Source: Parietichytrium sp. I65-24A (taxonomy: Eukaryota > Sar > Bigyra > Thraustochytrida > Thraustochytriidae). From it: a DNA stretch of 64,000 nt. The notes under the pieces were generated by a model that saw nothing but the letters and a program-made list of their open reading frames with translations, was not told the DNA's origin and made no database searches. The DNA lies in NCBI GenBank assembly GCA_012862575.1, contig BLSF01000067.1:62001-126000 (forward strand). Reading direction: 5' to 3'. The translations under genes were made by a program, and so were the position numbers. Each line of letters starts with the position of its first letter. The first letter of the stretch is position 1. This document shows, one piece after another, positions 49,704 through 54,546 of this stretch.

Positions 49704-50519
49704 CTACACGCGAGTGCTTGTCGCAGAGGCTCCAGCAGAGTTGCCGGAAAATGCTTTGCCGATGGAATTAGTGAACGAACTCGCAAAGGCACTCATTGCG
49801 TGCTGTTGCATGGCCCCCTTCACGGAACCTTCCAATCTCTGGCGAGCATATTTGGAGCATTGCCAGTAGCCGTAAATGTTGGAGACATTCAAACCGATTG
49901 CCACCAACACGAGCAGGAGCCAGTCAAAATTCAAGATGTTGAGAAAGCCGAACAAGAGCCAAAGTACAACATTGATGTACATCGAGTACCAAAAGATCGG
50001 GTAATCTACTCCGCTGACCGAATCAGGGTCCTGAAGATGATTTGGGGAGTTAGAAAATCAGGGGCAACCGGAAAAAAGAGTTTGGATAAACAAGCAAGTA
50101 CTTACCTCTGCGGACTCGAATCTCCATTGGCTGCTGCCATCCTCTTGCACTTCGTTCCACCACCTCAGACGAACCATGAGCCTCCCGGTGACGTTTTTGA
50201 CGACCCAAAAGTCGAAGGCAAGGCATACAATACAGAGCACAAATATGACAACAAAGCTGTCCGAAAACCATTTGCCAAAAAGAAACAAGAAGAGTGCAGC
50301 AATCTTAAAAGCCACGTGGAAAACCGCTGCCACAGGGTGAGAGGACCTCTTAAACATATCCACGACGTTCTCGCCCCTACCGCTGCCCTGCTGCTGGCCT
50401 TGCTGCTGCTGGGCCGTTGCAGCTACTGGAGCGTTGCTAGACATCGAGCCACCTGGAGCATTCACTGAAATGGACTCATCGTCCAAGAAGTTCATCTCTT
50501 CGCCGTCTTTGAGTGCCAT
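49704..50519 (-). CDS. TVP23: Golgi membrane protein TVP23 (FAM18) homologue
   Basis: Two exons, 50519-50106 and 50030-49704, join in frame to 246 residues; the 75-base intron begins GTAAGT and ends TTCAG. The cytosolic N-terminus (about 1-55) is acidic and then Gln-rich (ATAQQQQGQQQGSG). Four spans follow: HPVAAVFHVAFKIAALFLFL, FVVIFVLCIVCLAFDFWVV, INVVLWLLFGFLNIL and WLLLVLVAIGLNVSNIYGYW. Family signatures are NVTGRLMVRLRWWNEV, SGVDYPIFWYSMY and YGYWQCSK. TVP23 resides in late Golgi vesicles with YIP-family proteins and affects traffic. The C-terminus (AFASSFTNSIGKAFSGNSA) is cytosolic. Confidence 0.93.
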
Positions 50520-51137: not shown

Positions 51138-53096
51138 TCAGGTTGTCGTAACGAAAGATTCCGGGTCCTGCTGAACCGGCTCATAAGTAGCTGCAGGGGG
51201 TGCACCTTCGTCCATGCACCACATGACACAGCTGGAGACCATTAAAGCAGGGAGACATAATAGTATTGCGGCCGCCTCGATCAAGTAAGTGGTTACAGCC
51301 AACTCTGGATGCCCATCTCGTCGCAAAAGCTCTTTTTCAGCAAGCAGCTGATGCTCGCAAATACACTCTCTAATTGGAGGATCTGGTTTTGGCAAAACAC
51401 AATTTGATTCGTTGACAGCGATTCGCGCGCTGTCCACGCACTGTATGCTACCGACGAGAGAAACCTTTGGTCTTGGCTCGACACAAAGGGTCTCGGAGTC
51501 TGGACAAAGCTGTCGCGGCTCCTCTGCCCGCCAAGTGAAATGGGCCTCGAATCTGTCGTATATATAGGGTTTGGACTGCCATCCGAATATATCCCCCATG
51601 GTCAAGCATACATCGGACGCTTCGACCGTATCTCCAGAAAGGTCAAGCCCAACATCTTGGGGCGTAAAACACATCTCCTCGGAAATGACATCGTGAAGGG
51701 CAGTCCCTGGACACCCTCGCAAGCGCTCTTTCTCTACACCACCGAACTCACCACTCGCCCAAAGGTAAGGCGAATCTGCGAGACTTTGATTCGCCCACGA
51801 CTCGTGCAAGGAGTCAATGAATGCATGCAGCGGATAAAAGAAGTTGTCGTTGACAGAGAAGGCACCATCCCAAAAATCTGTGCCCACGATTACAGGATGC
51901 GGGGCCCACCAGAATATGTGGTGGAGAAACGGCAGCTCAAGGAGCCCGCAGTTACAATCTCTCGAGGCCGTTTGGCCCGGCACACATGAGCCTGGTTCCG
52001 GGCACTTGAGGGACCCAGCACGCCACTCTTTCCCGGTAAATTCCGTCGGCGCGACTTTGCCATACAAAGTCGACACGCGCTGATGCTGAACGACTGAGTC
52101 CAAGCCATTCATCCCTTGCATAATTCCAAGAAACACGGCGTGAAAACAGTAGGAAAAAAGCGCTACTCCACAGCCAAGTGAAGCGTAGAGTAGAATGAGA
52201 GCCTTCGCGCTCCAGACTGGCTCACGGGAAGGTTTTAGTCTCGCTGGAACGCAGTACCACAACCATGACATGAGGATCAACAAGACAAAGCCAAGCTGGA
52301 ATGATAGGATCACAGCTAGTGCAGCAGAGTTCTCCGAATCATTGTATGTCCCTGTAAAGATGTGCAAAATGTTATGAGGGCCGAAATCCGCGCCATGTGC
52401 AGTGAACCCCTTTCCTTGTACACAGCTGGCGAAGCTTGGAAATGTACCCGCGTAACTGCAATTCCTCATGCCACTTGCAAGTGTACTATGACGGATTGAC
52501 TTTCCTAGCGCCCACCCTGGATTTCTGCTTATTCCTGGACACGCATTAGGGCTCCATGGACTTCGAAGATATCCGTAGCCATTGGCAAAGGCGGTTCCCC
52601 CAAGTTTCTCCTTAAAAGAACGCAAAAGAGAACTCGGCAGTGTTTTTATCGATGGGACCGATGCGTTGAAGACGGGGTCGAGGATACAATAGTTATTATC
52701 CGCGTCACCATAAGGGGAGCCCCAGTATTTCCACAACGAGCTCTCGGTGACAGTGCCATGCGTTTCGAAGTCGAGGAAGAAGTCCCAGTACGGCAGGCCG
52801 GTGAGGCCTTGCGCCTCTTTTCCGAACGTGGCCAGCACCGCCAATAAAGATCTCTCGAACTCGGCAAGGAGGGCCCGATGAAATACTATTTGATTCCGAT
52901 CCGTGTGCCCTTGGTCCATGCACTGGTGCGCAGCCGAGACGGCGTGCTTGACCGTCAAGAACTCATAGCTACGATAAGCTTCTCCATACAGCAGCTTTCC
53001 CTCCTCAAGGTTCGTGCTGCGCATAACTTTAACCGCATCGACAAAAGCCAAGCGTTGAGCCTCGCTCAGAGTCCTAAACTCCCGGCGCACTCCCAT
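51138..53096 (-). CDS. Membrane-anchored tyrosinase-like copper protein with split CuB site
   Basis: 652 residues from ATG 53096, no intron. CuA: histidines in KHAVSAAH (about 46-56), QGHTDRN and FHRALLAEFE (about 71), then GLPYWDFFLDFETHG. CuB: PHNILHIFTG (about 239-248) gives two histidines; the third is in FFYPLHAFIDSLHESW (about 417-433). About 170 residues intervene, against a few tens in ordinary tyrosinases. They hold two membrane spans (about 259-285, ALAVILSFQLGFVLLILMSW; about 299-322, LILLYASLGCGVALFSYCF) and a Cys-rich loop. A third span is near 602-628. The hairpin keeps both CuB parts on one side. Tyrosinases oxidise phenols. Upstream, another frame (about 53286-53100) has a hydrophobic stretch FVLLARVIAGILKAF that could be a signal anchor joined by an intron or frameshift. 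Confidence 0.85.
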   Translation of the reverse strand: MGVRREFRTLSEAQRLAFVDAVKVMRSTNLEEGKLLYGEAYRSYEFLTVKHAVSAAHQCMDQGHTDRNQIVFHRALLAEFERSLLAVLATFGKEAQGLTGLPYWDFFLDFETHGTVTESSLWKYWGSPYGDADNNYCILDPVFNASVPSIKTLPSSLLRSFKEKLGGTAFANGYGYLRSPWSPNACPGISRNPGWALGKSIRHSTLASGMRNCSYAGTFPSFASCVQGKGFTAHGADFGPHNILHIFTGTYNDSENSAALAVILSFQLGFVLLILMSWLWYCVPARLKPSREPVWSAKALILLYASLGCGVALFSYCFHAVFLGIMQGMNGLDSVVQHQRVSTLYGKVAPTEFTGKEWRAGSLKCPEPGSCVPGQTASRDCNCGLLELPFLHHIFWWAPHPVIVGTDFWDGAFSVNDNFFYPLHAFIDSLHESWANQSLADSPYLWASGEFGGVEKERLRGCPGTALHDVISEEMCFTPQDVGLDLSGDTVEASDVCLTMGDIFGWQSKPYIYDRFEAHFTWRAEEPRQLCPDSETLCVEPRPKVSLVGSIQCVDSARIAVNESNCVLPKPDPPIRECICEHQLLAEKELLRRDGHPELAVTTYLIEAAAILLCLPALMVSSCVMWCMDEGAPPAATYEPVQQDPESFVTTT

Positions 53097-54159: not shown

Positions 54160-54546
54160 ATGGCAGCCGGGCCAGTGGCGCGCCTGGTGGCGCAGGTGTT
54201 GGTGATGGGTTTTAATGTGATGACGCGAGCGTTCGTGCAAGCGTATCAGCAAGCAGCTGCCAACCCGGAGGCTGCCAAGAGAGCAGCAGCGCAGGCTGCG
54301 CAAAAGACGCTGCGCAAGGAGATGGCCATTGAAGAGGCGCTCAAAATTCTGAACTTTGAGCGAGCTCCCCAGTCTGCAGAGGAGCTGATGGCGCGGTATA
54401 ACAGGTATTACGCGGCGAACGACCCAAAGAAAGGAGGGTCATTCTACTTGCAGTCCAAGTTTTTTCGCGCCAAGGAGGTTGTGGAAAAGCAGATTGCTGA
54501 GGAAGCCGCCAAAGAGGAGACGAAGACCGAAGGGGACAAGCAGTAG
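54160..54546 (+). CDS. PAM16: Mitochondrial import motor subunit PAM16/TIM16
   Basis: 128 residues, no intron, ATG 54160 in an ACGATATGG context. The N-terminus is hydrophobic (PVARLVAQVLVMGFNVMTRA), anchoring it at the inner membrane. The degenerate J domain follows: MAIEEALKILNFERAPQSAE and ELMARYNRYYAANDPKKGGS with YLQSKFFRAKEVVEKQI, lacking the HPD motif as expected for PAM16. It pairs with PAM18 to regulate Hsp70 at the TIM23 channel. The tail is Lys/Glu-rich. Length matches the family (120-150). Confidence 0.96.
   Translation: MAAGPVARLVAQVLVMGFNVMTRAFVQAYQQAAANPEAAKRAAAQAAQKTLRKEMAIEEALKILNFERAPQSAEELMARYNRYYAANDPKKGGSFYLQSKFFRAKEVVEKQIAEEAAKEETKTEGDKQ

Follow-up and report, generated by a model that had tools for sequence, protein, structure and literature searches.

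Can a membrane excursion of the chain come between the two encoded halves of one CuB site? This question is raised by a gene in a 64,000-nucleotide stretch (hereafter the window) of contig BLSF01000067.1 of Parietichytrium sp. I65-24A, whose genome comprises 42,540,916 bases in 172 contigs. A stop-free frame at positions 51138..53096 of the minus strand, in which no intron was seen, encodes a 652-residue type-3 copper protein with a predicted membrane hairpin in CuB. The frame begins at an ATG and an in-frame stop lies 17 codons upstream of it; the start codon is uncertain. An initial annotation had described a tyrosinase whose third CuB histidine follows about 170 residues after the first pair, with two hydrophobic segments in between that were proposed to anchor or gate the active site. 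Our search of 5.8 billion proteins, of which the 7,991 best candidates were scored, yielded four relatives (P0002 to P0005) that are 35-40% identical to the window protein in local alignment; these five proteins are called the family below. By sequence comparison, all five share the probable hairpin in CuB, whereas none of the ordinary tyrosinases used for comparison has it. We consider it reasonably probable that the gene encodes a type-3 copper phenol oxidase with a luminal or outer catalytic core, in which a membrane hairpin and a disulfide-rich module replace the CuB loop.

Six copper ligands and an insert in the CuB site

Tyrosinase (PF00264) was the single Pfam family matched by the window protein (38 bits against a curated cut-off of 22.6; E 2.9e-9), and the four homologues score 32.9 to 35.6 bits against the same profile. 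A PDB sequence search with the window protein alone as query gave no match at E 10; the family profile matched a Streptomyces tyrosinase (2.8e-5 to 1.1e-4). All the motifs quoted in the initial annotation (HAVSAAH, QGHTDRN, FHRALLAEFE, PHNILHIFTG, FFYPLHAFIDSLHESW and VPARLKPSREP) are present.

An alignment of ten sequences (A2) combined the five family members with four bacterial tyrosinases carried on plasmids and the tyrosinase domain from a paralog. The only histidines invariant in A2 are the six expected ligands (10/10 each). Those of CuA are H51 (52944..52946; this and all other features of the gene are on the minus strand), H64 (52905..52907), with eight residues between it and the next ligand, and H73 (52878..52880) in an FHR motif. 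Those of CuB are H241 (52374..52376) in a PHN motif, H245 (52362..52364) and H424 (51825..51827). R74, E81, P102, Y103, W104, P240, G249, F420 and D428 are also invariant. A larger alignment (A3) of 26 sequences, including 21 viral rows, likewise contains the H241 and H245 columns and keeps H73, F420, H424 and D428 in 26/26, while alignment of the H51 and H64 columns does not extend to all of its viral rows. The third CuB ligand is flanked by Phe at -4 and Asp at +4, a register described in section 5 of PMC3658974, and the ligand spacing, H1(n)H2(8)H3 in CuA and H1(3)H2(n)H3 in CuB, agrees with the same text. H424 aligns with the FWLHHAYID motif of the Streptomyces tyrosinase.

The best PF00264 match covers residues 43-253, equivalent to profile positions 3-186 of 214, and the part from residue 405 onward matches positions 187-213, weakly when taken alone (13 bits, E 0.14). 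When the intervening residues were deleted in silico, a single PF00264 stretch from 3 to 213 was obtained with 48.4 bits. Therefore, the insert (residues 250-404, approximate ends; 51885..52349) lies exactly between two adjacent profile positions, 186 and 187. With the insert removed, H424 aligns in the canonical register, a point that had been missed before. The measured distance from H245 to H424 is 179 residues (161-179 across the family), close to the earlier estimate. The accompanying statement that canonical tyrosinases have these histidines close together also holds, since the gap between CuB ligands 2 and 3 is 22-47 residues in 39 of 40 comparison loci and 23 residues in the paralog from the same genome. 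The 39 loci (33 of 34 viral, four plasmid and two of one paralog) are not independent, several of the viral ones being near-duplicates, and the fortieth, L024, ends before the upstream CuB motif.

Hydrophobic spans, cysteine segments and topology

Two hydrophobic segments separated by a basic loop had been noted in the insert, and the same elements recur in all five family members. In the window protein they correspond to predicted span 1 (residues 258-279; 52260..52325; hydropathy 2.55 over 19 residues; helix 254-282 in the structure model described below), a loop predicted to be cytosolic (residues 280-297; 52206..52259) and predicted span 2 (residues 298-320; 52137..52205; hydropathy 1.94; within model helix 293-345). 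Two hydrophobic 19-mers lie inside the insert in 5/5 proteins, and when the insert residues were shuffled 500 times, two such peaks arose between 1 and 15 times, varying by protein. We regard a membrane crossing of the CuB hairpin as probable. In every family member, the inter-span loop contains three to five Lys/Arg and is positive overall (net +1 to +3), and the 15 residues preceding span 1 are negative overall (net -1 to -3). By the positive-inside rule, these basic loops and acidic flanks would put the two parts of the copper domain together on a luminal or outer face, in agreement with the earlier proposal that the hairpin returns the chain to one side.

The spans diverge rapidly. Mean pairwise identity in the family is 18% in span 1 and 30% in span 2 (16% in a third span, see below), compared with 57% in the CuA region, 77% in the first CuB block and 67% in the second. 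Invariant columns across the five sequences number 0/22 in span 1 and 1/23 in span 2. Judged from these alignments, fast span divergence beside conserved copper blocks is what one would see in a tether that faces lipid. Of the two roles first proposed for the hairpin, the anchor is thus favoured by the divergence and by the basic loops, and the gate is disfavoured by the near absence of invariant span columns.

Between span 2 and the next copper-site block, about 85 residues hold an FxGxxWR motif and four invariant cysteines (C365, C371, C381 and C383). These features belong to the cysteine segment of the insert (residues 346-404; 51885..52061), where 9 of 59 columns are invariant in the five sequences. 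Altogether, 14 cysteines outside the spans are invariant in the family. A further cysteine-rich segment near the C terminus (residues 508-590; 51327..51575; alignment A4) had no Pfam or PDB sequence match. Its six-cysteine spacing resembles, in our reading, that of a thrombospondin type-1 domain, with one weak Foldseek row (E 1.3) and no sequence support. This segment is followed by predicted span 3 (residues 601-627; 51216..51296; hydropathy 2.15), which was overlooked in the initial annotation and is present in four of the five family members, the chain of P0003 stopping before any third span. The tails past span 3 are basic in three of the four proteins that have one, the window protein being the exception. 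The window protein tail contains YEPV (residues 638-641; 51174..51185), a candidate YxxPhi-type motif that is represented as YEPV, YTPI or YNAV in three of the four tailed proteins and is missing from P0005. It is possible that this motif acts as an endosomal sorting signal, and a chance match is also allowed for.

In the arrangement that we favour, the short loop between the HxxxH helix and the third histidine of CuB, which contacts substrate in ordinary tyrosinases, would be replaced by about 155 residues forming a two-span membrane hairpin and then a disulfide-rich module. Span 3 would serve as a second tether, and the enzyme would be attached to the luminal side of a membrane that may be endosomal, vacuolar or at the cell surface. 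With about 13 residues between H245 and the beginning of the hairpin, the copper site would be kept near the bilayer surface. With H208 and H231 as the corresponding ligands of the Bacillus (Priestia) megaterium tyrosinase (BmTyr), the substrate surroundings of that enzyme presumably fall in the loop replaced here. These surroundings are R209, Q214, M215, G216, V217, V218 and A221, according to PMC10179947. More tentatively, the substrate loop might have been taken into the membrane, the hairpin holding the dicopper mouth on or in the bilayer and drawing phenols or quinols from the lipid and not from water, and membrane-bound type-3 copper enzymes might have a separate, non-animal origin through a split of the copper site; we think this possible but doubtful.

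Predicted activity and rival explanations

Several results weigh against a luminal phenol oxidase. No signal peptide is visible in the frame, which the upstream stop closes, although the luminal topology calls for one, a lack that had gone unremarked. In the upstream 1 kb, a script found 16 candidate exon joins with a hydrophobic stretch, starting from two ATGs, and none of the 16 used a GTAAG or GTGAG donor. The start Met occupies the same alignment column in the four homologues that reach it, as if translation truly starts there; if this Met is genuine, the luminal topology fails or requires unusual translocation. N-glycosylation sequons are not significantly enriched, the observed number being reached in 26 to 90 of 300 shuffles. 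A structure model for which only the family sequences were supplied had no value (predicted local distance difference test score, pLDDT, 39.2; predicted template modelling score, pTM, 0.26). In a second model, whose alignment was enlarged by 21 viral loci, selected from the 34 so as to exclude near-duplicates and fragments, both CuB halves join in one tyrosinase core that includes the H424 side, consistent with the earlier suggestion that the copper centre could still assemble. However, this model is weak (pLDDT 54.8, pTM 0.44), and the 21 ordinary tyrosinases in its alignment favour an ordinary core. No Foldseek match of the second model reached E 0.001; TYRP1 was among the structural matches. 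Finally, the Phe expected four residues before the third CuA ligand is Gln69, and a water-keeper Glu is missing from the 13 residues preceding H241, both in 5/5 family members.

Because of these two absences, the predicted phenol oxidase activity is likely but not assured. According to PMC5562730, monophenolase activity depends on a water-keeper Glu together with an Asn beside the first CuB ligand, the Asn part of the rule being disputed. Asn242, which adjoins H241, is kept in 5/5 proteins, and its presence without the Glu points to diphenols rather than monophenols as the putative substrates. The same absences would suit a copper-site protein without phenol oxidase activity, such as an oxygen or copper binder, as would the loss of the first His from the usual HH pair, in whose place the five proteins have Leu, Met, Ile, Ile and Thr. 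We nevertheless judge such a protein decidedly unlikely, as all six ligands and the Asn following H241 are retained throughout the family, and a broken HH pair occurs also in the paralog and, as LLHC, in one bacterial tyrosinase.

The topology admits an alternative in which the observed Met is the true start, the copper domain lies in the cytosol and the membrane is hooked by the hairpin from that side. This is what the conserved Met and the lack of both a signal peptide and a convincing upstream exon would suggest, and Streptomyces tyrosinase chains start at the same point (M-T-V-R). It is, however, contrary to the positive-inside rule in 5/5 proteins, and the 14 invariant cysteines outside the spans and the basic tails past span 3 (three of four, though not in the window protein) also argue against it; we hold the inverted orientation to be unlikely and retain the luminal one. 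A hairpin that moves in the bilayer to open and close the copper site would be well placed, given its position in the substrate-contacting loop known from BmTyr (PMC10179947), but its spans are no more conserved than those of a plain anchor, and a gate seems very improbable to us. An intron, assembly or gene-model artefact was rejected as scarcely credible: the insert of this gene is known from genomic sequence, but it recurs in-frame with its conserved cysteines in four other proteins, one of them transcriptome-derived.

Known subclasses, distribution and genomic context

In section 5 of PMC3658974, type-3 copper proteins are sorted as secreted, cytosolic and membrane-bound; the membrane-bound gamma subclass is reported from animals only, and the non-unikont eukaryotes examined have secreted alpha forms only. 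The window protein resembles gamma forms in its Cys-rich regions, C-terminal span and short tail. Gamma forms, by the same text, have a signal peptide and a single span outside the copper domain, whereas the window protein has a CuB hairpin and no visible signal peptide. An uninterrupted copper domain is expected of that subclass, in contrast to the CuB insert found here. A protist family bound to the membrane via a hairpin inside CuB would fit none of these subclasses. BmTyr (PDB 3nq0 and relatives) differs from the window protein in being soluble, with a short CuB ligand 2-3 loop and no spans. In the open-access literature searched, no description of a thraustochytrid CuB-hairpin tyrosinase family was found. 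The host group is known for lipid production, and in such organisms the family may allow the idea of a bilayer-fixed copper oxidase to be tested.

P0003 is from Hondaea fermentalgiana and P0005 from an Aurantiochytrium transcriptome, both organisms being thraustochytrids. All four relatives share the insert, two spans, basic loop and cysteines of the window protein. In its own genome, the protein search returned the window gene and one paralog only; a Pfam search listed the paralog alone. As the window gene was missed by it, further split genes might also have gone undetected. When residues 246-450 served as the sole query, no match was obtained at E 0.01 and even the four known homologues were missed, which makes this search uninformative on the distribution of the insert. 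With the family alignment as query, neither viral contigs nor 84,980 prokaryote species yielded a confirmed relative, and a search of phage records was likewise empty. The absence from prokaryotes was weakly tested, because a scan of the same type with the paralog was also empty despite 18 plasmid bacterial tyrosinase records.

The paralog (L003; 490-3540 on the plus strand of contig C85) is the second tyrosinase-domain gene of the genome, a single 1016-codon frame with Pfam matches to C2, Tyrosinase, PG_binding_1 and Peptidase_M10 (matrixin). It shares the Tyrosinase match with the window protein and has PHNSAH at CuB, but differs in its ordinary gap and in its fusion to C2, peptidoglycan-binding and matrixin domains. 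We know of no such fusion elsewhere. A degenerate pattern for the third CuB histidine matched 34 IMG/VR viral contigs (L008-L041), one of 476 kb; the motif lies in an open frame in all 34 and an HxxxH-type CuB motif lies upstream in 33. Tyrosinase genes thus look widespread on viral contigs, as far as such motifs indicate. Three of the viral candidates were compared with PHROGs and had no match.

No functional cluster was found among the ten neighbouring frames scanned with Pfam, most of which correspond to common housekeeping genes of eukaryotes (sideroflexin, aconitase, methionyl-tRNA synthetase-type, desaturase, sulfatase and others). Of the flanking frames, the one at 54164-54546 (plus strand) presumably encodes a PAM16/TIM16-type import motor subunit. 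The other, at 49704-50519 (minus strand), carries one GTAAGT intron and presumably encodes a Golgi protein of the TVP23 type. Elsewhere in the window, positions 1-2000 have a G+C content of 33.5%, compared with 45-54% in the remaining 2-kb windows.
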